DNA from: Paludibacteraceae bacterium
GTDB lineage: Bacteria > Bacteroidota > Bacteroidia > Bacteroidales > Paludibacteraceae
Assembly (NCBI GenBank): GCA_024401555.1
Contig: JAKSKV010000008.1
Span: 44,835-108,834, forward strand
Direction: 5' to 3'
DNA: 64,000 nt
Both the position numbers and the translations under genes were made by a program. Shown in pieces: positions 49,304 through 64,000 of the stretch. Within the stretch, counting starts at the first letter, position 1; each line of letters starts with the position of its first letter. Under the pieces are notes generated by a model. The model saw only the letters and a program-made list of their open reading frames with translations. It searched no databases and was not told the origin of the DNA.

Positions 49304-49494
49304 AGAATTATGAGTTAAGAAATATTGAAAACGGAGCACAAAAAGTCATTCTTATATTGTGCGTCAAGTGAAATAATGCAAAATATCGTAGGTTTGTTAC
49401 GGAAAATGCGTTGTATTATTTTGGTGTTTGGAATAAAAAGTTTTTTTTTGTAGTAAATTTACATAGGTGTTTGGTGGAATTTTTAATACAAGTC

Positions 49495-50781
49495 ATGATA
49501 AGAGAATTTTGGGTTAAGAATTATTTGTCCATCCGAGACAGACAAGAGATTAATTTCCTGGCCAAAGGTCCGGCATCGGAACTGGTGACTGAGGTTACGG
49601 AAGGAGTCTTTGTCTATAAGTTGGGCATTCTGTACGGTTCGAATGCTTCTGGCAAGTCGAATATGCTGATTGCATTAAATGGAGTGTTCCGTCTTTTGGT
49701 GTTGCCAAAGTCGGATTCGAACAAGCATATAAATGGATTTATGCCGTTTGCATTGACCAAAGATGAGCCTACAGAGATGCACGTGTCGTTCTATGCACAT
49801 GGAGTGAGGTATGATTATGATGTAAAATTCAATAATCGATTTATCCTTGCGGAGACTCTGAATTACTATCCAAACAATTCAAGGGCTCTTTTCTATGAAC
49901 GTACATTTGTGGGAGAGAATGTGCAGGCAGAGATAAAGTTCGGCTCTACATTGAAATTACAGCAGAAGACTCAGCAGACAATTCGTGAGAACACATTGAA
50001 CAACCATAGTGTTTTGTCTGTATGCCGGAAAATGGCACTGACAGAAGATATTATGCCATTCAATAAACTGTATGGCTGGGTGATGGAGAACTATCACGAT
50101 GTAGATGGCGACAGTGACAAAGAAAAGGGTCTTGTCGAAATTCTAAAGGCCGCTTACAAGGATGACAAGAAGAGGAAGTTCTTTAATCAGATGCTCCAGA
50201 AAGCTGACTTGAATATCATTGACTTCAAACCTGTTCAGGAGGATAGATTCATTCCTCAGGATTTTCGTGAGCGAGTTCTGCGTGAGAGCATTCCTGATGA
50301 CATGAAGGAAGCTTTATTGAGACCAACAACCGACTCCGTGGATTTTGTGAATCACTCAGATTCAGGCAACTTCGACATACCTTTGGGATGGCAATCAAAG
50401 GGTACGCTTAAGTATATAAGAATCTTGGATGTGCTGTATGATTTGATTACGGGTGATCATGTATATTATCTGGATGAGTTGGGTGAAGATCTGCATTATG
50501 ACCTTCTGTTCTATTACTTGAATGTATTCTTGTTTAACTCGGAAAAATCACAATTGATTATCACAAGTCAGGAAACGGCATTGCTGCAGCAAGATTTGAT
50601 AAATGAGAACAGAGGTGTAGTGTGGTTTGTCGAGAAGAACAGAGAGACAGCAAGTTCGGAGTACAACCGTGGCGATTCGTATGGTCTGCATAAGAATCTG
50701 TCGCTTTACAATTCATATCGCATTGGCAGATTGGGCGCAAAACCAGAGTTGGGTTCTATCTTCGTAAATCTGGAGGAATAA
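49495..50781 (+). CDS. AbiLi/RloA-type AAA ATPase (AAA_15/21)
   Basis: 428 residues from ATG 49495 (MIREFWVKNYLSIRDRQEIN, the usual start of AAA_15/21 proteins); the in-frame ATG at 49411 is too far upstream. Walker A GSNASGKS (48-55), and a late ABC-like Walker B VYYLDELGEDLH followed by IITSQETALL. The next gene, one base downstream, is RloB-like, the pairing found in AbiL (AbiLi + AbiLii) abortive-infection systems. The partner is cut short, so the pair may be inactive. Start of the A+T-rich accessory region. Confidence 0.82.
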   Translation: MIREFWVKNYLSIRDRQEINFLAKGPASELVTEVTEGVFVYKLGILYGSNASGKSNMLIALNGVFRLLVLPKSDSNKHINGFMPFALTKDEPTEMHVSFYAHGVRYDYDVKFNNRFILAETLNYYPNNSRALFYERTFVGENVQAEIKFGSTLKLQQKTQQTIRENTLNNHSVLSVCRKMALTEDIMPFNKLYGWVMENYHDVDGDSDKEKGLVEILKAAYKDDKKRKFFNQMLQKADLNIIDFKPVQEDRFIPQDFRERVLRESIPDDMKEALLRPTTDSVDFVNHSDSGNFDIPLGWQSKGTLKYIRILDVLYDLITGDHVYYLDELGEDLHYDLLFYYLNVFLFNSEKSQLIITSQETALLQQDLINENRGVVWFVEKNRETASSEYNRGDSYGLHKNLSLYNSYRIGRLGAKPELGSIFVNLEE

Positions 50782-50782
50782 C

Positions 50783-51139
50783 ATGGGAAAGCTTAGAAAC
50801 GCTGCATTGATACTGGGCGAAGGTCCTACGGAATTCTACTATTTCAAGTCGTTGTGCGATGTATTCAAGGGATTGACTATCAAACCAGACTACCCGAAAC
50901 ATACAAACATTAAAGACTTGGATGCCAAGATAGCAGAGGGTGTGGCTATGGGCTTCAATCGCATCTTCTGCATCATTGATATAGACACCAAGGCTCGAGA
51001 ACCTGAGCGCTCACAATATGAGCGACTGAAGAATAAGTACGCACAACCTATCAACAAACCCAAGAAAGGATTGTATTGTGAGGTGAAGTTCTTCGAGACT
51101 CACCGTTGCACAGAACTATTCTTCTTGTACTACTTCTGA
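50783..51139 (+). pseudogene. Truncated RloB/AbiLii-like TOPRIM protein
   Basis: 118 residues matching the N-terminal half of RloB: ILGEGPTEFYYFKSL (Glu 13-16 region, TOPRIM) and RIFCIIDIDTK (Asp 66/68). It ends abruptly after FFETHRCTELFFLYYF, where family members (about 200 residues) continue for roughly another 80. No continuation was found in any frame of the 110 bp before the next gene, so the 3' part appears deleted rather than frameshifted. A functional short form cannot be excluded. Confidence 0.7.
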
Positions 51140-51174
51140 AGACAATTTTTCTAGGTGGATTGTGAGAAAATGTG

Positions 51175-51182
51175 TAATTTTG
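51175..51182 (+). promoter_or_regulatory. -7 box (TAATTTTG) for the AAA_14/DUF4143 gene
   Basis: TAATTTTG matches TAnnTTTG; TTG lies 12 bp upstream. The leader would be about 65 nt. Confidence 0.5.
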
Positions 51183-51254
51183 CAAGCGAAAAAAGTTGGA
51201 AAAACGGACAGATTAGTGCGTTTTTATAATTGATTAGCGGACAAATATCGAAAT

Positions 51255-52604
51255 ATGATAACTAGAAAAGCGGACGAGTGGATTGATCGCCACTTCAGAA
51301 ATACGAAGAAGGCATTGCTGCTGACAGGTGCCAGACAGGTGGGTAAGACGTATGCTGTGAGGCGTGCGGCTGAGAGGCTTGGGTGGCATCTGGTGGAGAT
51401 GAATTTCTTGCTGCAGCCCGAGACGATTAACATCGTGAAGGGGGCTGGTGAACTGAAGGAGGTGATGCTTCGCATTTCGGCTTATGCTAATGTGCCTCTG
51501 GATTGGGAACGGACGCTGATCTTCTTCGATGAGGTGGAGGAATATCCGGACGTGATGACCTGGGTGAAGGCTTTTGTCGATAAGGGCTATCATCTGGCGT
51601 TGAGCGGTAGTCTGCTGGGAGTGGAATTGAACAATGTTCGTTCGGTGCCTGTGGGTTATTTGGACGAGAAGCAGATGTACCCTTGTGACCTGGAGGAGTT
51701 TATCAGAGCCGTGGGTGTGCAGGATGCTGTGATTGATTCGCTTCGTGAGGCTTGGAAGGAGAGGAAACCGGTGGATGCGTATGTGCACCAGAAGATGATG
51801 CAGTTGGTGAACCTCTACCTGCTGGTGGGCGGTATGCCTGCGGCTGTGCAGACGTATCTGGACACGAACGATATGCAGCGGGTGCTGATGGAGCAAAGGT
51901 CGATATTGGCGCTCTACAAGAAGGACATCGGAAGGTATGATCCTGAGGACAAGCTCTACATCAACGACATCTTCGACCTGATTCCGCCAGAACTGAATGC
52001 GAAGAACAAGCGTTTCATCCTGAAGAACCTGAATGAGCATTTCAAGTTCAGCAGACATGAGAACAGTTTCACTTGGCTGAGGGATGCAGATATGGCTTTG
52101 CCAACGCATTGTGCCGAAGAGCCGAAGGTGCCTTTAGTGTTGAGTAAGGCAAGTAACTTGTTCAAACTGTTTCAGAATGATGTAGGTCTGTTGGCGTGTC
52201 AGTATGCCGATGGCATACAGCTGAGGATTCTGCAAGGTGAGACGAACATCAACTATGGTGCAATCTATGAGAACCTGACGGCTCAGGAGTTGCATGCACA
52301 TGGATGGAGTTTGTTCTATTTTCAGAATAAGAAGCAGGGTGAGCTTGATTTCCTGCTGGAGAAGGACACGGAAATCATTCCGCTGGAGGTAAAATCGGGT
52401 AAGGACTATGCGCGCCATGTGGCATTGAACAATGTGATGGCGAACCCAGAATACAGTATCAAGGAGGCGATAGTGTTGTGTAACGACAACCTGAGCACCC
52501 GAGGTAATGTGACGTATGCCCCCATCTATATGCTGATGTTCATAGAGAAGCAAAAGGATGATGGTCCGAAGATCTTTAAGCTGGATTTGAGTGGATTGGT
52601 GTAA
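51255..52604 (+). CDS. AAA_14/DUF4143 ATPase
   Basis: 449 residues. ATPase domain: LLLTGARQVGKTYAVRRAAE (Walker A near 25-32), TLIFFDEVEEYPDV (Walker B near 88-95), LALSGSLLG (sensor). The C-terminal DUF4143 part contains a PD-(D/E)XK-like core, GELDFLLEKD...IIPLEVKSGKD. These ATPases are numerous in Bacteroidota, of unsettled function, and frequently found in accessory regions. It has its own promoter and sits where the RloB gene is broken off. Confidence 0.9.
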   Translation: MITRKADEWIDRHFRNTKKALLLTGARQVGKTYAVRRAAERLGWHLVEMNFLLQPETINIVKGAGELKEVMLRISAYANVPLDWERTLIFFDEVEEYPDVMTWVKAFVDKGYHLALSGSLLGVELNNVRSVPVGYLDEKQMYPCDLEEFIRAVGVQDAVIDSLREAWKERKPVDAYVHQKMMQLVNLYLLVGGMPAAVQTYLDTNDMQRVLMEQRSILALYKKDIGRYDPEDKLYINDIFDLIPPELNAKNKRFILKNLNEHFKFSRHENSFTWLRDADMALPTHCAEEPKVPLVLSKASNLFKLFQNDVGLLACQYADGIQLRILQGETNINYGAIYENLTAQELHAHGWSLFYFQNKKQGELDFLLEKDTEIIPLEVKSGKDYARHVALNNVMANPEYSIKEAIVLCNDNLSTRGNVTYAPIYMLMFIEKQKDDGPKIFKLDLSGLV

Positions 52605-52633
52605 TTTCATAAAAATTATAAGATTTCAGTGAT

Positions 52634-52906
52634 ATGACATCAAAAAGCGAATCCAATTGGTATCAAAACTATGAGCCCTTGAAAGCGTACATCCTTGAAC
52701 GAGGACATCTGCCAGATAAACATGTGGTAGAAAACCGCGCTTTGCTTTCCTGGGCGAAGTACCAGAGGAAGAAGATTAAGGAAGGTACGCTGGATGCAGA
52801 GAAACTAAAACTGTTTGAAACATTACTCGCCACTCGTTCAAATGAGCATACAGGGGGGAGAAGGAAGAAGATAGGTGTACTACTTAGTGCTCCATTAATT
52901 TATTGA
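52634..52906 (+). CDS. Helicase-associated (HA) domain protein, 90 aa
   Basis: Most of the protein is one HA-type helical domain: WYQNYEPLKAYILERGHLPDKH and NRALLSWAKYQRKKIKEGTLD, ending HTGGRRKK. HA domains are thought to bind DNA. The final ~12 residues (IGVLLSAPLIY) look atypical, as if the original C-terminus had been replaced. Confidence 0.65.
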   Translation: MTSKSESNWYQNYEPLKAYILERGHLPDKHVVENRALLSWAKYQRKKIKEGTLDAEKLKLFETLLATRSNEHTGGRRKKIGVLLSAPLIY

Positions 52907-53179
52907 AAGTATGATAAGTTGTTGATTTTCTAATATTCTACTTTATGCATGTTGTAATCAAATATGTCCGTTCTTAGATATTTGCACGTGTCGAATCAAG
53001 CAAGTATATATGCTAGATGAAGGTAATATTTGGAGAAGATGGTCTTGAAGATTTCAAGAAAAGTATGTTACGTTAAGCCGAATGCACAAAGTATAGTTCT
53101 ACGTCGTGCTTGAATGTCCTAATAAAGGCTTATTATTTAAAGATAATAAAATAACTTCGAAATAATATAAACAATAGAT
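52907..53179 (+). promoter_or_regulatory. A+T-rich leader of the five-gene cluster, with -7-like TAACTTCG at 53152-53159
   Basis: No clear gene; a 19-residue ORF at 53017-53076 (MKVIFGEDGLEDFKKSMLR) reads like a relict or a leader peptide. TAACTTCG, one mismatch from TAnnTTTG, is 20 bp before the ATG at 53180 and could start the operon. Confidence 0.4.
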
Positions 53180-56100
53180 ATGTTAGTAACAGGAAATAAA
53201 ATAAATGAATGCCACATTTTGAATATGTGTGCTTTAAATACGACCTTCCCACACATTCCTAGTGAAACAATATCTCGGGAAACGTATCTGGACCTGATAG
53301 ATCAGCAGTTTGCTGAAAACAAAGTACTTTGCGTTTCAGGTCAAAAAGGTGCTGGTGTATCAATGACACTTGCAATGTTTGCGATGAGACATTCCATGGA
53401 ATGTGTTTCTTATTTCAACTATGGATTGTCTAGAATGGAATTATCTCCCAAAACAATTGAGGACTGTTTGACAAAACAATTGATGTTATACATAGATGGT
53501 GATGTGTCCAAATATGAGGAAATTAATCTGCGATCCATAATGTATAAAGCTTTGAGAAGAGCAAAAAGTCAACATAGATATATATACTTTGTGATAGATG
53601 GCTTTGCTACAGTACCTGCCGATAGCAAGGAGATTCTTCGGGATATATTAGCACCATGGTTTTCCAACGAGAATATCCGTTTTCTATTTTCTGGGATAAG
53701 TAGTGAAATCAGTGCTATTCTACCGCGAGGGATGAAATCTGTCCAATCCAATTCAATACTAACATTTCAGAAAGTTGAGGTTTCTGATCTTCTTCGACGC
53801 ATAAATAAAGATATTAGCAATGATGAAATTGACATCTGTTATAAACTTACAGGAGGCAATGCAACTCAATTAAGTATATTATTAGAAAAATATGGAGAGA
53901 AAGGATCTTTTGATTTCGCTCAAAGGATGTACCAATACAACGAATATGATTTTTACAAAGAAGATTGGGATATCATAGAAGAGAGCGATGATAGTAAAGT
54001 AAAAACATTTTTGGGATTCCTTATTTTTTCAGAGCTCCCTCTAAATCAAGAAGTTCTTATGTCTGTATTAGAAGTAGATGTCGAGCAATTTAACCAAATT
54101 GCTATATACTGCTCAAAATACATAAGAGAAGATAAAGGGTGCTATTATATTAACTCTATTAGTTTGAGAAAATATTTATGTGACAAATTGACTCCAATAA
54201 AAAACGATATTGAACTACTACTAATAGATGTTTTTGAGAGAACGAACAATATAGAGGAGTCTTTTCTTTACTTGCCATCTTTGTATAGAAAATCAAACAG
54301 GAAAAGCGACCTTGTTTCATATCTGACTTCTGATAAAGTACAACATTTCCTTGAGGAGAAAAAATCGCAGGCAGCATTAAACGAACAATGTGAATTTGGT
54401 TTTAATGCATCAACAGGAATGGAGGATCAAGCCGGTGAATGTTTCCGTTTTGCGTTAAATAGAAGTTCATCAAGGGAAATTGAGAAGAATGAGCTCTCTG
54501 ATTCTGAAATAGAAGCATTGATAGCTGTTGGCGAAGACGAAAAAGCTTTTGCTCTAGCCCAAAAGGTGTTCTTATTGGAAGAACGGTTAAAGTGTCTTTT
54601 GATAATAGCCAGAGCCGGAAAGCACTTAAGTGATACAATGATGAGTCAATTAAGAGAGCAGATAAATGTATTGTCTGCTTCTATTGATTTTGAGCATATC
54701 CCAGATAAAGCTATAGAATTGGCAAAACTTATGCTGCCTATAGACTTTGTTGAAGCAATGGCAATAATTGATAAAGTAGCTAACCAGAAAAATCGCATTC
54801 AACTGGATAGCCTGTATGCTGCTATATCATTGTCCTATGAATATGAAGGAGAAAAAGGAGCCGATGACATGTCGAAGGCAGATATTGTAAGTACAAAGAT
54901 AGAGGACGATGGAATCAGAAAGATGGCAAATGCCATGAAATCCATTATGACAGAATGTACAGCTGATGAAATTTTGCAAGAATTAGAAAAATTGCCTACA
55001 TCATCTAGTAAATTATACTTCCTGCAGTTTTGGATACCAGATCATAAAGACATTCAGGATATAGGTAAAGTTGTTAAGTATGCTGTTAAACTGACTTTGG
55101 AGTCATCAAACGTTAATGTTCCTAAAGTGTCGCTAATTGGACATTTTTGCAAGCCATTAGTTAGTATGTCGCGAGAAGACATATTGGAAGTCGTATCAAT
55201 GATTGATTCTGTGACTACAGCTATACAATACCCTACAATAGACTATGTGGATCTGCAATTAACACTCATCCAGAGTTTATCAAATGTTGATTCAGAATCA
55301 GCAAAGAATAAGTTGGAGAATATTTACTTGCAATCATGCGATCATGAAGACAAAACACTTAATATACAGTGCAAGTCTTTGATTTTAAGCAGATACGACG
55401 AACTGGGGAATAAATGCCACCTAGAAAAATGGTTGATGCCTGCATTTGAATTGCAAAAGGAAATAATATCAGATATACTTTGTCAGTTCGATCAAACAGC
55501 GTACCACATGAAAGTGGTTGAAACTCCAATAAAAGAGTTGGTGTGTAAATATCCGTCTCTTGTTGAAGATGTTATACCAAAGATGAACACTGAGGCGAGA
55601 CGTAGCAAAGCTTACCTCTTAGCTTTGAATGAATATATAAAGCAGACAGATATAGAATCGTTAAATTGGTGTTACTTGACCAAGTTGTTCAATAAGGTTA
55701 CTTTTGATAAAACTGACTTGGATACTCCAATCATTCGGTTAGTACGTAAAGTGGTAAGATGTAAGGATAACAAGGATGCACTATTGGATAAAATTAAGCA
55801 GCATCTATATAAAATAAATTGTATAGAACACGAAGGCAATAAGTGTTATGTATTATCAATATTATATGTGTGGGTCAAGAATAATTTCTCCGATTTAGAG
55901 TTTGAGGGAAGAATTAAAGAAGATTTGGACAAAACTTGGGACACCATTGGAATACCATTGATGAAGGTAGAAGTTGGTTATCAAATAGCTAAGCAATTGT
56001 CCAAAATATCTTTGAAAGAAGATGCTCACGATTACATTAGAAAAACGGAAGATGTGCGAAAGCTTCAATTACTATCTTCATTTTCTTGCATGAGCGCATA

Positions 56101-58102
56101 TCAAGAGAGTTTATCATTGTTTGTGCACTCTATAGGTATATTGGTTCGTTCAAATTTGTGTAAGGATTCTGATTTGGAGCAGTTGGTTCAATTGCTTGCA
56201 TACGATGATTCTGAAGGTGATGCAATGATTGCATGGTCAAGAATTGCATTGGAGTTTTATTTAAACAAGAATGAAAACAAATTCTCAGAAATTGTAAACG
56301 AACATGTCTCAAAATCTTTAGACAAATATTCACAGTTCTACCAGAAGTATATTTTATACCACATTTCTCCTGCTCTATTCCTTTCAGGACAAGCTCTCTT
56401 CTTTAATAGGTTGAAGAATTATGATGCTTGGTTTGTAGACTTGTGTTTAGAAAACGTTGCACGATTTGTTAGAACAAAATATCCATATCCTGATTGTATG
56501 GATACAAGAAACGAGATTAGTTGTAATCCGCTGGACTACAAAGATTTCGAGTATCTTATCTTGTTGATGGAACATTCTAATGATGAGTGCTTTATTTACA
56601 ATACAACACAATCAATAGCTGAAGATATTAAAGATAACAATTCAAGATTGTCACGGGAACAAAGAGACTTTACATTCAGCTCATTAGAAAACGTAATTAA
56701 TACGAAATTGCCTATGGTGGGTGGTATTCAGCATGATGGCTATAAGATTGCTTGCCTTGCTATGATTGATGGATGTAAAAAGCCTAATGATACAAATTGG
56801 AGTACCTATAAAAGTAAGATTGAGGCAATACCTAATGTAGCAGATAAGGCGTTTTTGTATGCACAGGTAGCTCATTACATTAAAAAGGCTGATACTAGAA
56901 TAGAATTTTTATCAAAAGCTGTCGAAACCGCAGAATCAATAGCATGTTCTTTTGATAAAATGAGCCGCTTTGATATGTGTATTGAAGAGAGTTTCTCTAC
57001 AACTTCTTCTATGTCTAGAAATATTGTGAACAAGGCAATGGAATCTACCCTTGCTAATAAGAATGGTAAATATGAGGATGTACAGAAATTGATTGATCAA
57101 GTAAGAGAACATGATGAACAATTAGCAGATTCAATGCTAGACATGGTGGATCGCGATCCAGCCCGCCTTTCATATAAGAACAAGCTGAAATCTAACAGAG
57201 CGTCAAAAGCCAGATTGAAGTCTGCCAAAGAGGACATATCTAATGTTACTGCACTAACAAATCAAGAACAAATATCTTTCTTTGAAAAGCAATTGGAAGT
57301 CTTGATTAAGGGACGGAATGTTGCTCGTGATGTGGATAAGACTATATCAATCATGCATAAGATATATGAAAATCCTATTTCAGATACAAATAATGCAATT
57401 CTTTATTTTATGGAGAATCTGTATCGAAAGCACTCTGTAAATAATAGGCATAGCGTACTGATTAGAAAGATTCATGAAGCCATTGTATGCAACCTAAAAA
57501 TCGTGTTAGCTATCGCATCCGGCACATACGAAAAGTTGGAACGAATAAATAGAATTATGGATAGCGATATTCATAGAGATGACAACTTTGTACGTGCGGG
57601 AGAACATGAGAAGGGATTTGAAATTCTTCTTAAATGGTATATGGAACATTCATACAATCAACTTCGTATTGTGGATGCGTATTTCCACATAGAAGACTTT
57701 CTGATCATTAAAAAGTTTTTCGACATAAATAACGATTTAAATGTAAATATACTAACTCATAAACAAAAATATCCAGATATTGACGTATTTCAAAAAGGTT
57801 GGAATAGGGTGTCCGCAGATATGACAGGCTCTATTTCCATTACAACAGTATGCTTTAATGATGATCCTGGCACTTGTCCTATACATGATAGATGGTGGGT
57901 ATTGTACGATAATGAAACAGGTGAAAGCGTTGGTTTAAGACTGGAGTCATTAAGTGGTTTAGGAAAACGTGATAGTGAGATTTCAGAAATGGATGAGCAA
58001 TCATTGCATTCCTTTAATTCCCTATGGATTGAATATATTATGAATGGCATTCGTAAGAAAAATGAACGTAGATTGGATTACGATTACAAAACGATCAAAT
58101 AA
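53180..58102 (+). CDS. 1640-aa STAND-like NTPase with helical repeats and a C-terminal PLD-like domain
   Basis: N-terminal NTPase (about 25-260): VSGQKGAGVSMT has a P-loop shape but Val 60 replaces the usual Lys; YIYFVID (Asp 140) as Walker B; FLFSG (near 171) as sensor; then KLTGGNATQLSILLEKY and a winged-helix-like section. Residues ~400-1450 are almost wholly alpha-helical with no motif I recognise, presumably repeat units of a sensor. The last ~140 residues (VDAYFHIEDFLIIKKFF near 1498; IHDRWWVLYD with His 1569; SLSGLGKRDSEIS) resemble the PLD-like MIT_C-type domain seen at the end of bacterial defence proteins. First gene of the cluster. Confidence 0.7.
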   Translation: MLVTGNKINECHILNMCALNTTFPHIPSETISRETYLDLIDQQFAENKVLCVSGQKGAGVSMTLAMFAMRHSMECVSYFNYGLSRMELSPKTIEDCLTKQLMLYIDGDVSKYEEINLRSIMYKALRRAKSQHRYIYFVIDGFATVPADSKEILRDILAPWFSNENIRFLFSGISSEISAILPRGMKSVQSNSILTFQKVEVSDLLRRINKDISNDEIDICYKLTGGNATQLSILLEKYGEKGSFDFAQRMYQYNEYDFYKEDWDIIEESDDSKVKTFLGFLIFSELPLNQEVLMSVLEVDVEQFNQIAIYCSKYIREDKGCYYINSISLRKYLCDKLTPIKNDIELLLIDVFERTNNIEESFLYLPSLYRKSNRKSDLVSYLTSDKVQHFLEEKKSQAALNEQCEFGFNASTGMEDQAGECFRFALNRSSSREIEKNELSDSEIEALIAVGEDEKAFALAQKVFLLEERLKCLLIIARAGKHLSDTMMSQLREQINVLSASIDFEHIPDKAIELAKLMLPIDFVEAMAIIDKVANQKNRIQLDSLYAAISLSYEYEGEKGADDMSKADIVSTKIEDDGIRKMANAMKSIMTECTADEILQELEKLPTSSSKLYFLQFWIPDHKDIQDIGKVVKYAVKLTLESSNVNVPKVSLIGHFCKPLVSMSREDILEVVSMIDSVTTAIQYPTIDYVDLQLTLIQSLSNVDSESAKNKLENIYLQSCDHEDKTLNIQCKSLILSRYDELGNKCHLEKWLMPAFELQKEIISDILCQFDQTAYHMKVVETPIKELVCKYPSLVEDVIPKMNTEARRSKAYLLALNEYIKQTDIESLNWCYLTKLFNKVTFDKTDLDTPIIRLVRKVVRCKDNKDALLDKIKQHLYKINCIEHEGNKCYVLSILYVWVKNNFSDLEFEGRIKEDLDKTWDTIGIPLMKVEVGYQIAKQLSKISLKEDAHDYIRKTEDVRKLQLLSSFSCMSAYQESLSLFVHSIGILVRSNLCKDSDLEQLVQLLAYDDSEGDAMIAWSRIALEFYLNKNENKFSEIVNEHVSKSLDKYSQFYQKYILYHISPALFLSGQALFFNRLKNYDAWFVDLCLENVARFVRTKYPYPDCMDTRNEISCNPLDYKDFEYLILLMEHSNDECFIYNTTQSIAEDIKDNNSRLSREQRDFTFSSLENVINTKLPMVGGIQHDGYKIACLAMIDGCKKPNDTNWSTYKSKIEAIPNVADKAFLYAQVAHYIKKADTRIEFLSKAVETAESIACSFDKMSRFDMCIEESFSTTSSMSRNIVNKAMESTLANKNGKYEDVQKLIDQVREHDEQLADSMLDMVDRDPARLSYKNKLKSNRASKARLKSAKEDISNVTALTNQEQISFFEKQLEVLIKGRNVARDVDKTISIMHKIYENPISDTNNAILYFMENLYRKHSVNNRHSVLIRKIHEAIVCNLKIVLAIASGTYEKLERINRIMDSDIHRDDNFVRAGEHEKGFEILLKWYMEHSYNQLRIVDAYFHIEDFLIIKKFFDINNDLNVNILTHKQKYPDIDVFQKGWNRVSADMTGSISITTVCFNDDPGTCPIHDRWWVLYDNETGESVGLRLESLSGLGKRDSEISEMDEQSLHSFNSLWIEYIMNGIRKKNERRLDYDYKTIK

Positions 58103-58172
58103 GCAAGCACAAACAGGTAGAGCCATATGGCTTATTGTTCGATACTATCGCTTGTGGCAAAAGGGAAATGTT

Positions 58173-58484
58173 ATGAGAAGTTATACAAAAAAAGCAATTG
58201 GAGTTGCTGTTATATTGGGACTTATAGTGTTTATTTTTACATGCTTCAACACCCCTAAATATAAGGAATCTGAAGTTTCTAAAAATGCTAAAACGGAATT
58301 GTTTTTGAAAGAAATCGAAAAAATAGAATCTGTTGATAGCTTATTGCTTGATAGATGTGACTCTATATTGTTAAAATCAACAAACCAAGCAAGCACGACA
58401 AATTCTATAAGCGATCAGATAGATGCCGTCTCGACTAAACTTGACAAAATCAATAAATCTGTAAAAAATGTTCGACTTCACTAA
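58173..58484 (+). CDS. Small one-TM protein, 103 aa
   Basis: From ATG 58173: a basic start MRSYTKKA, one TM (IGVAVILGLIVFIFTCF) and a charged, helical C-terminal part ending SDQIDAVSTKLDKINKSVKNV, likely coiled coil. A start at 58044 would overlap the large gene. It overlaps the next gene by 17 bp, so the two should be made together. No family recognised. Confidence 0.6.
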   Translation: MRSYTKKAIGVAVILGLIVFIFTCFNTPKYKESEVSKNAKTELFLKEIEKIESVDSLLLDRCDSILLKSTNQASTTNSISDQIDAVSTKLDKINKSVKNVRLH

Positions 58485-60987
58485 TTATACGTATAGCGGA
58501 CTCCTGTCCATAATCGTAGCCCTATTGAGTTTTGCATACCCCAAGATTGTGGACAGCATATCTTGCATCGATGCAAAATACGGGTCTTCCATGCTAACAG
58601 CGCGAATGCAGAAAGAAAATTCACTTTTTGCTTTCAGATTACTGTTAGTTGTTAACCTTTGCTGTTCTATTTTGCTTCCATTCATGCTTGATCAGTCTTT
58701 GAACAGCAGATGGTATATACTTCTGCAAGCGATTGCAGTCGTATCTCTCATTACAGCCACTTTTTGTTTGTTTCAGACAATTAGTATTTATAATAATTCA
58801 AGCGAGTTGCAGGATGAAATTTGGTTAGACTTTTCAAAAGCAAGGGAAAAAGGACTAAAGGAAAAAGAAAGACAACATTTCTCAGAATGGATTGATTTAG
58901 CATGTTATACTATAGCTGGTGCAGATAGAAAAACAGCGAAAAAAGTATATGATTGTTTATCGGATTATATTGCATCCTTTATAAAGAATAACGAGAACTC
59001 GGATTTCGAATATGATGGCTATTATTATGAAGGAATGGACAAATTAAATAACTATCTGTGTAAGAACCCCGATGAACCAATATCTGTTAACAATGGCAAT
59101 CATTTATTGTGCTCGCTTATTTCACCCTACCTTGGCATCACTGAATCTACTTATCGATCTCTAAGAAAGAACTTGATGTTACAAGTGCATTACGGGAAGG
59201 AAGAGTGGATTTTGAATTATTGGACTCAAGCTTCCCAAAGATACGATTACTTTATGAAGAAAATCTCCACGTATGAACTCAATGAAGAGACAGGAGTAAA
59301 CTATTCTGAGGAAGATGTGCAGGAGAGAGACGAAGAGCGTTGGCGTTTCTTTGAGTTTCATTTTATGCTTTGTGCATTGATAATGCAACAAAAGAAATAT
59401 GAACTGCTAAGAGATATGTTATCCTTCACTCAATCCTTTCCACCTTCATACCCTTTGATTCCATCGACAATGCAGGCTTGTATGCAAGTCTTTCATGAGT
59501 ATAACCAACGATATTCTTATAACACAATAGAGTTGGAACGTAAGTACCCAATGCTTCGATCGCATGGAATTGTGGATGGTAAGATTATGGGTGCAGGAAA
59601 TATGTTTTTGTCACTCATGGTTTTGAGAGTATATACGCTTCTCTGGCCTTATGGTTCATCACACGCCTTAGGAACACCATATGCTGCTAATAATCTAAAA
59701 GATAATGCATCATGGATTACTGATATGGAAACCTTGAAGAGATGTTTGGCAATTGTCCGCACAAACAAGGATTTGATGCAAGCAATAGGAATTGCAGATT
59801 GGGAGAAAACCATCAAGGCAGCTGAAGAACAATATGGCGAGATCAAGGAACCTGAGACTATCATTGATGAATTTTTGGCATCGGTTAATCAACAAATGGA
59901 AGATGAACGCCAGAATGTGCCATACGATGAGCCACGAGTTGATAAGATGAAGGCAGAGGTTGTAGAACTGGTAACAAAGAACCTTGGAAAGTATTCTGAT
60001 TTCACAACTGATAGGAATTTCCAAAGTAAGTGCTCGTACTTCATTAATGCATCTGCATTCAACATATTCCCCAATTCGGCTTTTGTTGAGCACCGGGATA
60101 TGGACTATGCTAATATCCCAGAATGTATGAGTGAAGCCATGATATTCCAGTTCAGACATTACTTCGCGTCCGTTTTCTACAGAGAGACATCAATGCAGTA
60201 TTTCACAATTGATTCAGAATACGTGTTTAAAACTCTTGACAGATTGAAAATAGATGGTCAATTTACTATAGTAAGTTTTGGTATATATTGGGACTACTAC
60301 ATTGATAGAATAGAAGGATTAAGCAAGGACGCTTATTATTATTATCATGACGCAAAGATAATCAACCTAAATGGTGGGTCTAGCCTCTTGCAACAATGTT
60401 TCTATGTAATGAGGTCTGACGATTTGCCATATCTTGTCTTCCAGGAACCCTCAGAGGAATGGAAGTCTATATATAATCCAGATTGCAAGAAAACTGAATA
60501 TCAGTTGTGGTTGTCTTTGCAGAAGGTAAAGGAACATCCAGAAATGTTAAATGAAAAGGATCGAGAGCGCATGAACGAAAATCCTGATGAACTATCTGTA
60601 TTTGCAGGTATCATGTTAGCTCAGATGCATTGGAAAATGAGTTGCCCAACAATCAAAATTGAAATTAAGTATAAATTGATTGACAATGGGAATGTAGATG
60701 ACGTAGAAAAGATTTGCTCATTTGATGCGTATGTGGAAAAAGCCAATCAGCCAAAAGAGGATAAAATTAAGTTGTCAATATTGGAATGGAAGATAATGCA
60801 GGAGTTAGAAAAGGATCATAAGTTATCAGCATCTCGTTTAGGCAACATGTTGAAGGTAAAGTCGCATGTTGTCAGTAAATGCTTTGTTTCGCTTAAGAAC
60901 AAAAGTGTACTGGAAAGACATGGGACTCCTAAAAGTGGAACATGGGATGTTATAAAAGATTGGCAATCAAAATGTGAAAAGGAATAG
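58468..60987 (+). CDS. Membrane-anchored protein with three N-terminal TMs and a C-terminal winged helix, 839 aa
   Basis: TMs at about 9-28, 54-74 and 83-106. A long, Tyr- and Trp-rich soluble part follows (YYYEGMDKL, EERWRFFEFHFMLCAL, WDYYIDRIEGLSKDAYYYYHD), with no recognisable catalytic motif. Residues ~769-835 read as a winged helix (LSILEWKIMQELEKDHKLSA, LGNMLKVKSHVVSKCF, RHGTPKSGTWDV). The combination of membrane anchor and DNA-binding-type end is odd. No family recognised; function inferred only from the neighbourhood. Confidence 0.6.
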   Translation: MFDFTNYTYSGLLSIIVALLSFAYPKIVDSISCIDAKYGSSMLTARMQKENSLFAFRLLLVVNLCCSILLPFMLDQSLNSRWYILLQAIAVVSLITATFCLFQTISIYNNSSELQDEIWLDFSKAREKGLKEKERQHFSEWIDLACYTIAGADRKTAKKVYDCLSDYIASFIKNNENSDFEYDGYYYEGMDKLNNYLCKNPDEPISVNNGNHLLCSLISPYLGITESTYRSLRKNLMLQVHYGKEEWILNYWTQASQRYDYFMKKISTYELNEETGVNYSEEDVQERDEERWRFFEFHFMLCALIMQQKKYELLRDMLSFTQSFPPSYPLIPSTMQACMQVFHEYNQRYSYNTIELERKYPMLRSHGIVDGKIMGAGNMFLSLMVLRVYTLLWPYGSSHALGTPYAANNLKDNASWITDMETLKRCLAIVRTNKDLMQAIGIADWEKTIKAAEEQYGEIKEPETIIDEFLASVNQQMEDERQNVPYDEPRVDKMKAEVVELVTKNLGKYSDFTTDRNFQSKCSYFINASAFNIFPNSAFVEHRDMDYANIPECMSEAMIFQFRHYFASVFYRETSMQYFTIDSEYVFKTLDRLKIDGQFTIVSFGIYWDYYIDRIEGLSKDAYYYYHDAKIINLNGGSSLLQQCFYVMRSDDLPYLVFQEPSEEWKSIYNPDCKKTEYQLWLSLQKVKEHPEMLNEKDRERMNENPDELSVFAGIMLAQMHWKMSCPTIKIEIKYKLIDNGNVDDVEKICSFDAYVEKANQPKEDKIKLSILEWKIMQELEKDHKLSASRLGNMLKVKSHVVSKCFVSLKNKSVLERHGTPKSGTWDVIKDWQSKCEKE

Positions 60988-61037
60988 CTCCCCACATTTA
61001 ATCTTTCGGAAAACGACAATCTGAAATCTATAAAGTC

Positions 61038-62840
61038 ATGAGTACTACAGCAGACATAGAACATAAAGCCATCAATGAACTTGAGCGTTTCATTGAGGAT
61101 AGCGAGTGCATCGCGCCATTCATTGACGAAAACGATAAGGAACCTTGCTGGGATGGTCACTTGTATATTTATTCGGATGCAAATAAGGATAAGGAACATC
61201 TTTCCGGTCGTGTCCCTGTCCAGGTAAAGGGTACAGAGGTCAAAAATTTCAAGTGCAAGAAGTATTCCTTCTCAATAGACATGAATGACCTGAAAGCGTA
61301 TCTCAATGAACCAACCTTTTATATTATATGCCAGATAAAGAGGGGAACGAAGGAAAGAAAGTTGTTTTATCGTGCCTTGCTACCTTCTCTTGTCAAGAAT
61401 ATCATACGTGCTCATCCAAAGCAAAAGACAGTAGCAGTTCGCATGGAACCATTCCCACAGGAATTGCATGAGTTTGAGGATATGCTGAAAGTGTTCTTGG
61501 GAGACAGCCGTCGTCAGGTCAGTTTTGCCAACAAGAATGACTTTACCATGGAACAGGTCAAACTTAGAGGGGTAAAGCAGCTTTCTTTTATTACTCCTAA
61601 CAAGAATATGGATCAGTTTCAACTGATGAAGTATTTATCCACGCATTCATCCTATCTTTATGCAAAGGTGGATGAAGATTTGGACTATGAAGTACCTGTC
61701 GAGGGCCCGATGGCATTCTCTTTTCAGCGAGAGGTGAATGAACCCGTAAGCGTCGGAGGCAAGACTTATTTTGAGAAATTCAAAACCGAAATTAAGGATG
61801 GTAATATTATCGCAAATGTAGGTGATGGATTGTTGAAGATGGAAATGCCTATTGACGAAGAACTGGCAAAAAGACATTCAAAACTCTCAATACATGACGA
61901 ATCGGCATATTTGAGCGATGCTATACGAAATGCTGAGTTTGCACTAAATCTACATGAGACAGGTCAGATAACACTTGGCAAAACTGTATTCAATATAAGC
62001 AAGGCAAAAGAGAAAGATGCGGTTGAACGCATAAAAAAGAATCTTCAGAACTGGAAGGAACTAAAGGGAGTTTTGGACAAACTGCATGTTCGTAAAGAAT
62101 TTGATCTGACCAAGATTAGTAGAGAACAGGCACATCTTATAAGCATTTTGATTGATGCTATCGGAAGAGGTAAAAAGGTTGATATACCAGATGCAACCTC
62201 TACTCTTCTTGTTTGGGAGATTAGTAATGTTAAACTCTTGCTGTGGTGCTCTGTTGGCATTGATGGAAAATGTACATTAGGTGACTTCTTTGATGGGGAA
62301 CTTACTATCGCCTACAAATATGGCGAGAACATGGTTTACGAGTCAAGTGCCTTTACTTATTTGCAGACAGAAAACCTTTGGGAAAGATGTGGCAATATCC
62401 CATACGAAAAGCAGATCGCATCTTACGAAGCATTTGTTGGCAAGAATCCTCGAATATATCAGATGGCAAACTACGACATGCTTGATATGGTTAGAACCTA
62501 TGATAAGATTTCAGAATCAAATCTTGATAAAGCTGCTATGATTTATGACTCAGCCCTTTCTTTGAGTGAATGGTTACAAGCAAATGATGTGGAATACAAT
62601 AAAACCTTGCACATTGTGAACCGATTACAGATTATAAAACGCAAGCGGTCATTTACAGAGGAGGAAGTTATATCGCTGGAAGAAATTCGTGAATCATCTG
62701 ATGGCAATGCCTCATTGCAACTTGCTTGCTCTATTTTGCTGGATGATATAGACTCTGTGCGAAAGTATGAAAATGCTTGTACACAAGAGGAATTGACCTT
62801 GCTAAAACAATTCCCTATCTGGCACTTCTATGCAGCATAG
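61038..62840 (+). CDS. DUF4365 domain protein (PD-(D/E)XK nuclease-like), 600 aa
   Basis: The first ~170 residues match DUF4365: an acidic N-terminal helix (IEHKAINELERFIEDSE), PCWDGHLYIY (Asp 39) and GRVPVQVKGTE (Gln 62, Lys 64), the nuclease D...QxK core. The rest (about 175-600) has beta-rich segments (VPVEGPMAFSFQREV) and helices (ISREQAHLISILIDAIG) I cannot name. DUF4365 proteins are common in defence islands; nuclease action on nucleic acid is inferred from the motif. Confidence 0.8.
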   Translation: MSTTADIEHKAINELERFIEDSECIAPFIDENDKEPCWDGHLYIYSDANKDKEHLSGRVPVQVKGTEVKNFKCKKYSFSIDMNDLKAYLNEPTFYIICQIKRGTKERKLFYRALLPSLVKNIIRAHPKQKTVAVRMEPFPQELHEFEDMLKVFLGDSRRQVSFANKNDFTMEQVKLRGVKQLSFITPNKNMDQFQLMKYLSTHSSYLYAKVDEDLDYEVPVEGPMAFSFQREVNEPVSVGGKTYFEKFKTEIKDGNIIANVGDGLLKMEMPIDEELAKRHSKLSIHDESAYLSDAIRNAEFALNLHETGQITLGKTVFNISKAKEKDAVERIKKNLQNWKELKGVLDKLHVRKEFDLTKISREQAHLISILIDAIGRGKKVDIPDATSTLLVWEISNVKLLLWCSVGIDGKCTLGDFFDGELTIAYKYGENMVYESSAFTYLQTENLWERCGNIPYEKQIASYEAFVGKNPRIYQMANYDMLDMVRTYDKISESNLDKAAMIYDSALSLSEWLQANDVEYNKTLHIVNRLQIIKRKRSFTEEEVISLEEIRESSDGNASLQLACSILLDDIDSVRKYENACTQEELTLLKQFPIWHFYAA

Positions 62841-63031
62841 CATAAAGCCTTGCTTGCACGCGAAGTTCCCTTTTATAGTAGTCAATATGATTGTCTTCAA
62901 CAATGCGTTTGCGCTTGAAATAACGATAGGAAAAGTTAATATTAATCTTATCAATTTCATGGTTCTTGCTATGGCAAGCAACAAGGTTGGGTGAAAATTC
63001 AAACGATTGTAATAATCTTAATTCAAACGAT
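62841..63031 (-). pseudogene. Possible coding relict on the minus strand
   Basis: A minus-strand frame reads NLVACHSKNHEIDKINI, then FKRKRIVEDNH and YYKRELRVQARLYAML; its composition and codons look coding. It overlaps the 3' end of the DUF4365 gene and the 5' end of the next plus-strand gene, so it is more likely the tail of a disrupted gene than an intact one. No clear start. Confidence 0.3.
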
Positions 63032-63835
63032 ATGCACGATGATTCTTTAGATGATATTCGTGAGAAAGTTTTCTCCGGGTATCCCTTTGCCTTGTCAAAT
63101 GAAGAGAAAGATATTTTAGCCAAATTAAATACGGAAAGTATTCCTCTGGTAGTTAGTGAGTGTAGGCAAAAACTAGATTATCTTGGGAATAGATGTGCTG
63201 TATTTGCCTTTCTTAGGAACGATAATGACGGAGATAAGGTTCCAGATGCTGATTATGAGTCTGATCCATTGCTCAAAGAATACGCTATTATTAGAAACAG
63301 CTTCCCCAATATATGGGAATTGATGGGTTTTGTATCTCTTCTTGAGATGGATGCTATCTCTTTGCTAATCGGTATTCTGACGGCAGAGAGTGATGTTGAA
63401 AGAAAAATGCTTGGTAAACATGCCTATACAATTGTGTTTGAAGCAAGGCAAAAAGGTTTGTTCCAGAAGGTGTCAAAGGAAATGAGCGCATTCCCAGATT
63501 CTCTTCTTTCTAAGCAGGAAAACGATGAGTTGTGGAGTATAATAAAGAAGGATTTAAGGAGCATGTCGGATATTGGAGTAGAGCATACTATTCGTAACCA
63601 TATTGACGCCCATAAGTCTTCCTCATTTGAGTGCCAGTATGAAATATTTCGCTCTTGTAATTGGGGTCAGGCGGTATACGATCTCCTTGCGTTGATTCAA
63701 ATATCAGATAGGTTGTTGGGTGTTATAGAATCGGTTTTCTCTAAATACAAAGACGAGATAGAATCTGTTACAAACAGAATAAAAACAAGAGTGTCAATGT
63801 TAGATGACATATTAGAAAAGCTTAAACAAGAGTGA
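63032..63835 (+). CDS. Hypothetical helical protein, 267 aa
   Basis: From ATG 63032 (MHDDSLDDIREKVFSGYPFA). Largely helical and acidic, with a long C-terminal helix (YKDEIESVTNRIKTRVSMLDDILEKLKQE). LNKDIGVEHTIRNHIDAH-like region near the middle has a His pair, but no catalytic pattern is evident. No family recognised. It is separated from the DUF4365 gene by 191 bp, so its membership in the same operon is less certain than for the others. Confidence 0.55.
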   Translation: MHDDSLDDIREKVFSGYPFALSNEEKDILAKLNTESIPLVVSECRQKLDYLGNRCAVFAFLRNDNDGDKVPDADYESDPLLKEYAIIRNSFPNIWELMGFVSLLEMDAISLLIGILTAESDVERKMLGKHAYTIVFEARQKGLFQKVSKEMSAFPDSLLSKQENDELWSIIKKDLRSMSDIGVEHTIRNHIDAHKSSSFECQYEIFRSCNWGQAVYDLLALIQISDRLLGVIESVFSKYKDEIESVTNRIKTRVSMLDDILEKLKQE

Positions 63836-63924
63836 GATAGAGTTAATGTGTCTCAAATCCTTTGCTTGAAAAAATTTACGATCTATAGACATTTCTTTAC
63901 TCACATATAAATACAATGTACCAA

Positions 63925-63958
63925 AATTGAGGTTATGCCACCAGACATAACCTCAATT
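63925..63958. terminator. Likely bidirectional terminator at the end of the cluster
   Basis: Perfect 13-bp stem AATTGAGGTTATG / CATAACCTCAATT with an 8-nt loop; the minus side is followed by TTGG, the plus side by CTTATTGATTT. Confidence 0.6.
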
Positions 63959-63959
63959 C

Positions 63960-64000
63960 TTATTGATTTACGACTTTTAATGTAGGGTTGACTCTTGGCT
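63960..64000 (-). CDS. Possible 3' end of a minus-strand gene entering the window
   Basis: Only the last 12 codons are visible, PRVNPTLKVVNQ then TAA at 63962-63960, right before the hairpin at 63925-63958. Too short to identify. Confidence 0.3.
   Translation of the reverse strand, partial: PRVNPTLKVVNQ

Follow-up and report, generated by a model that had tools for sequence, protein, structure and literature searches.

An rloA-rloB-anchored island in a Paludibacteraceae bacterium as a probable slot for independent, putatively defensive modules

Among bacterial STAND (NLR-like) proteins, those of the Avs/AVAST type have a domain order in which the effector comes first, and in the phospholipase D (PLD) superfamily the catalytic motif is HxK. 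SPARDA combines a short Argonaute with a DUF4365-APAZ nuclease, and PADLOC includes PDC-S05 as a candidate single-gene system. In Campylobacter jejuni the rloAB pair lies inside a type I restriction-modification (RM) locus, according to the passages of PMC2928727 that concern it. We analysed a 64,000-nucleotide stretch of DNA (the window) from a Paludibacteraceae bacterium, for which a preliminary description had proposed an unnamed set of five genes acting together in the manner of abortive infection. In the literature covered, mostly PMC, we found neither this gene set nor a cargo slot at rloAB described. We propose, with a probability of roughly 0.8, that the stretch running from 49495 to 63963 or beyond forms a defence island organised as a cargo slot, and that its cargo consists of independent stacked modules and not of one system. 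In this proposal rloA-rloB would form the left edge, and gene 5 together with a tyrosine-recombinase gene that emerges at the contig end would form the right edge. The cargo would comprise a DUF4143 ATPase and modules that live alone elsewhere, namely gene 1, gene 4 and gene 3, the last probably paired with gene 2, and these would add up as independent defences rather than a single pathway.

Layout of the island

The five plus-strand genes in A+T-rich DNA are present as described, both in the list of open reading frames (ORFs) and in base composition, with a G+C content of 31-40% across the five-gene stretch versus 48% for positions 1-48000 of the window. They are the right-hand portion of a longer island that starts at rloA-rloB. 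The left anchor, rloA (49495..50781, plus strand), encodes an AbiLi-like ATPase (Pfam AAA_21, 1.6e-20; PADLOC AbiLi, 9.8e-59) and is followed on the same strand by a truncated rloB of 118 aa (50783..51139; Pfam RloB, 1.1e-10). The first cargo gene (51255..52604, plus strand), with a G+C of 0.496, encodes a DUF4143/AAA_14 ATPase (Pfam DUF4143, 5.4e-25) that fits the PADLOC model of the candidate system PDC-S01 (2.3e-177). Next to it, a 90-aa plus-strand ORF with a single helicase-associated (HA) domain (52634..52906; Pfam HA, 2.2e-9) is probably what remains of a larger gene.

Gene 1 (53180..58102, plus strand) encodes 1640 aa with a STAND-like NTPase region, a long middle and a C-terminal PLD-like domain. 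Gene 2 (58173..58484, plus strand; 103 aa), with one transmembrane (TM) segment and a polar tail, overlaps by 17 nt with gene 3 (58468..60987, plus strand; 839 aa), which has three N-terminal TM segments and an extra C-terminal tail. The overlapping one-TM and three-TM proteins of the preliminary description are therefore both seen, and the winged helix assigned to the latter is a possible feature of its tail. Gene 4 (61038..62840, plus strand; 600 aa) begins with a DUF4365 domain of the PD-(D/E)XK nuclease fold. Gene 5 (63032..63835, plus strand) encodes 267 aa from an ATG start, or 289 aa from a TTG at 62966, and forms the right edge of the island. The contig ends exactly where the window ends. 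A search of the whole window revealed no tRNA genes, and the 46 consensus promoters found compare with 49.6 expected by chance.

Cargo exchange behind rloA-rloB

The sister species G013 carries the order rloB, a 1298-aa protein (PADLOC Tmn, 4.7e-98) and gene 5 on its contig C169. DNA identity between G013 and the window is 90% in both shared flanks, which are 374 bases long on the left and 670 on the right, and the segment between them gave no blastn match; the Tmn gene thus occupies the place of the DUF4143 gene and genes 1-4. On the left, identity stops at 51136, the left junction of the replaced segment. This position is codon 118 of rloB, indicating that the rloB of the window was damaged: it encodes 118 aa versus 201-204 aa in nine relatives, while RloA is intact, and the missing part of rloB could not be located anywhere else in the window. 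On the right, the common DNA begins at 62996..63031, and the spacer that precedes it after gene 4 (62841-62995) has no match in 16 genomes of the genus.

RloA relatives with 67-97% identity were found in 11 other genomes. Ten rloAB loci, including that of the window, have readable downstream DNA; G015 and G054 were excluded because their contigs end first. In nine of the ten, the gene after rloB points the same way and begins between -3 and 116 nt past the rloB stop, the tenth (G137) having a convergent gene at 362 nt. In 8 of the 10 loci the cargo has a match among the defence or candidate families of PADLOC, in a tally that covers part of the cargo proteins. Besides PDC-S01 in the window and Tmn in G013, these are PDC-S60 in G001, GajA/GajB (Gabija) in G003 and Old in both G268 and G286, together with two loci that include loose matches, a partial one to HamB in G009 (a Hachiman-like helicase) and one to PifA in G121 (2e-13), the latter beside a type III RM system. 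The cargo of G137 and G214 had no PADLOC match.

Matching flanks around different cargo, the pattern of a defence hotspot, were found in four groups. In addition to the window and G013, these are G137/G121 (95.8% over 1949 bases and 98.1% over 3128), G009/G003 (92.8% over 3306 and 94.2% over 756) and G268/G214/G286 (about 94% over 2 kb, with a right flank at 92% over 1832 bases in G268/G214, against which that of G286 matches at 83% and 93% over 308 bases). G001 has no flank-matching sibling in the set. In the three groups other than window/G013, the left match runs up to the 3' end of rloB and stops there. A stretch of 226 bases in the middle, 73% identical between G268 and G214, counts against a clean swap in that case. 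Most of the relatives are draft metagenome assemblies, in which misassembly could mimic single swaps, although not readily four groups. The alignments demonstrate that the cargo between rloAB and the right flank is exchanged wholesale among close relatives, and DNA docked behind rloB is a place to seek new defence genes.

We infer that rloAB may have some role in the exchange. A more far-reaching reading would make RloAB the constant front half of a modular Prevotellaceae immune system that is completed by whichever defence gene is docked at the rloB 3' end. It draws on the close co-directional spacing in nine of the ten loci and on the variety of docked genes among relatives with flanks 83-98% identical. 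In this reading RloAB could detect infection or watch over the docked effector, or could instead serve as a homology arm and addiction device for effector exchange. We consider this doubtful; if rloAB did couple to exchangeable effectors, it would represent a modular immune front end.

The right edge of the island holds gene 5, which was matched in 2 of 300 genomes of the family, its own and G013 (87% at the amino acid level), and the differences between the two fall 17/11/39 by codon position over the 670 bases, a bias indicating that the gene is translated and constrained. Farther right, positions 63883-64000 of the window match the end of G013 contig C79 (92%), beyond which lies a Phage_integrase remnant (27.4 bits versus a cut-off of 27.1). 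HEPN RNases have the pattern R-x5-H, and a HEPN assignment of gene 5 was discarded, the pattern (RNHIDAH) being its one basis and Pfam lending it no support. We also set aside its single match among solved structures (8whn_A, 7e-4) as chance in a helical sequence, and its sole PADLOC match, Cas7d, is at chance level. One gene 5 relative was counted in a scan of viral contigs, which gave no locus for it.

Past gene 5 lies a perfect 34-bp palindrome (13-8-13; 63925..63958) with a terminator-like form. In G013 its loop is inverted relative to the flanks. The palindrome occurs at a single place in each of 2 of 16 genus genomes and is absent from the other 14, so that a role in cassette shuffling is unsupported and the idea of a multi-copy recombination site was rejected. 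It may be a terminator whose loop has inverted, or a site of recombination.

Distribution of the five genes and their relatives

The absence of a named system for the set was borne out, since PADLOC gave no family for genes 1-4 at E<=1. The parts also look defensive, as had been claimed: there is a PLD-like fold, a DUF4365 nuclease and a membrane protein, and defence genes lie close by, those near gene 1 homologues having been chosen by eye without a control set. What found no support was a single shared system. Using tblastn at E<=1e-3, we found that none of 113 loci from other genomes (duplicates included) carries two of the five families, a search in which diverged copies of gene 2 (too short) or gene 5 (too rare) may escape detection. 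None of 19 loci homologous to gene 1 has genes 2-5, and 15 of the 19 have at least 5 kb of downstream sequence; genes 1, 4 and 5 are missing from all 9 gene 3 loci, as are genes 1, 3 and 5 from all 8 distinct gene 4 contexts. Among 101 relatives searched for genes 3 and 4, both were full-length only in the genome of the window. A single abortive-infection system, with gene 1 as sensor, genes 2-3 as membrane arm and genes 4-5 as nuclease and helper, would account for the common strand, the small gaps, the 17-nt overlap and the similarly low G+C. However, full-length homologues of genes 1, 3 and 4 occur apart from one another, gene 5 comes after Tmn in G013, and the zero count among the 113 loci led us to reject this explanation, which is largely refuted by the absent co-occurrence and is now highly improbable. 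Genes 1-4 are closely spaced in the same orientation, no strong terminator separates them, and they may share a transcript in this genome, which counts against a reading as independent modules. Overall, the supposed new five-gene system is resolved into separate testable units, for which a defence function is suggested by domains and context.

Gene 1 stands alone and encodes a STAND-like/solenoid protein. Its C-terminus has a phospholipase-D fold, in agreement with the earlier claim of a PLD-like domain. Its family occurs in Bacteroidota, Bacillota, Betaproteobacteria and Cloacimonadota. In its putative STAND/NACHT-type P-loop region, the window copy matches Pfam AAA_22 with an E of 1e-4, under the cut-off; among seven relatives at E<=1, five match NPHP3_N and three NACHT, and nSTAND is also among the family matches. 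In an alignment of 19 members, from which a locus with a split gene (L083) was excluded, 6 retain the Walker A lysine and the other 13, the window copy (GxGVS) among them, carry a replacement. Lysine has given way to V, T or L in all 11 Bacteroidales and to A in two of three Betaproteobacteria. The Walker B acidic residue (hhhDG) is found in all 19 members, and all 19 likewise have HDR as the PLD motif, with arginine in place of the HxK lysine, which leaves the PLD-like activity uncertain.

Ten pairwise comparisons among five close Bacteroidales members gave an overall dN/dS of 0.07-0.10, with values of 0.08-0.11 for the NTPase part and 0.03-0.17 for the PLD part, indicating that the lysine-less NTPase domain is maintained and not decaying. 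By this measure the P-loop is under purifying selection. An inactive STAND domain in defence has a precedent in BrxB of BREX, as presented in the relevant passages of PMC12839542. We suggest that the middle region would sense an infection signal, that the STAND-like domain would then switch or oligomerise, and that the PLD-like domain could cut nucleic acid or another phosphodiester, halting phage spread at the cost of the cell. The locus adds a widespread single-gene STAND-like/PLD family, the whole protein unmatched by PADLOC, with a lysine-less P-loop under selection.

Gene 1 had no match in phage records or in viral contigs. Contexts in plasmid records were examined for 4 of 4 records of gene 1, 1 of 1 of gene 3 and 2 of 15 of gene 4. 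In G007 (L074 / L028) the gene 1 homologue is flanked by two ORFs with near-identical starts (L028 774-5792 and 11553-11927), as if it had inserted into a repeat family. The split homologue in Enterococcus crotali (L083 3833-8778) is a broken copy with intact relatives elsewhere, and a CHAT-domain gene (L025 15671-16666) lies downstream of the Cytobacillus homologue.

Gene 3 represents a three-TM family, without a Pfam or PADLOC name, that occurs without genes 1, 4 and 5. Nine fuller homologues were found, in G030, G038, G084, G711, G781, G767 (as two ORFs), G809, G622 and a Hymenobacter plasmid, and nine further genomes have weak matches to the C-terminal tail only. Hydropathy revealed N-terminal TM segments in the eight homologues checked, the split G767 copy being left out. 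The copy in G809 adjoins type III RM genes and an RloA-like gene, and that in G767 adjoins type I RM genes. An alignment of the homologues identified no family, its profile gave nothing usable among solved structures, and it found no relatives in viral contigs; against PADLOC, one of five homologues had a weak LmuC match (0.0017). A weak gene 3 match was also seen in G826, and the split homologue in G767 (L096 8946-11328) is a broken copy with intact relatives elsewhere.

A pairing of genes 2 and 3 is plausible from their arrangement, and they may form a membrane-anchored pair. Whether they make a true two-gene unit, leaving genes 1, 4 and 5 as single-gene units within the island, is a refinement for which we see about even odds. 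The 17-nt overlap speaks for it, as does a 202-aa ORF in G622 (L098 7968-8576) that resembles gene 2 in position and layout. This ORF begins with an HTH-like stretch, has a single TM and a polar tail, and stops 2 nt short of the gene 3 homologue. Against this, the likeness of that ORF to gene 2 is one of layout, and the other eight gene 3 loci have no clear abutting TM partner, other small or unrelated ORFs being found there. A gene 2 match to DUF3810 (Pfam 2.3e-4, under the cut-off) was dismissed as TM/coil similarity.

Gene 4 is a stand-alone protein with a SPARDA-type DUF4365 nuclease fold, and the claimed nuclease assignment is upheld by a PD-(D/E)XK fold with Q-x-K. Its DUF4365 domain could cut DNA after triggering of the C-terminal part. 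Gene 4 alone had no match in viral contigs, and an alignment of the family had seven. A partial gene 4 match was noted in G580. The relatives in 15 plasmid records and in putative viral contigs, together with the integrase remnant at the G013 right flank, would also suit ordinary accessory cargo of a mobile element with addiction or competition functions, and not defence. The nuclease folds and the STAND-like architecture argue against this, as does the exchange of these genes for known defence genes within the same slot, and we regard a non-defensive cargo as improbable.

Comparison with described systems

A cargo slot holding independent modules shares parts with several described systems. 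Like Avs/AVAST and other bacterial STAND proteins, gene 1 is a large single protein with an NTPase, a long middle and a putative effector. Unlike Avs, it has the NTPase at the N-terminus and the PLD-like effector at the C-terminus, its family has no Walker A lysine in 13 of 19 members, and it has no PADLOC Avs match. The C-terminal region of PDC-S05 matches two gene 1 homologues in their C-terminal PLD-like domain (7.4e-10 and 3e-9), but PDC-S05 is a protein of 285 aa without a STAND region and leaves the window gene 1 unmatched at E<=1. Gene 4 shares with SPARDA the N-terminal DUF4365 fold and the residues Q62/K64; the similarity to the model ends at residue 166, and a Pfam search of the nine proteins from 49411 to 63835 identified no Argonaute partner. 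As in RloAB/AbiL, rloA and rloB are adjacent, and in C. jejuni too the pair is lodged within the locus of another system, whereas here rloB is truncated and the pair fronts exchangeable cargo. Finally, the fixed flanks and variable defence genes recall the core defence hotspots of Pseudomonas (PMC10250203). In contrast to those hotspots, the fixed left flank here, rloAB, is a putative defence pair in its own right, and the slot is found at several chromosomal sites.
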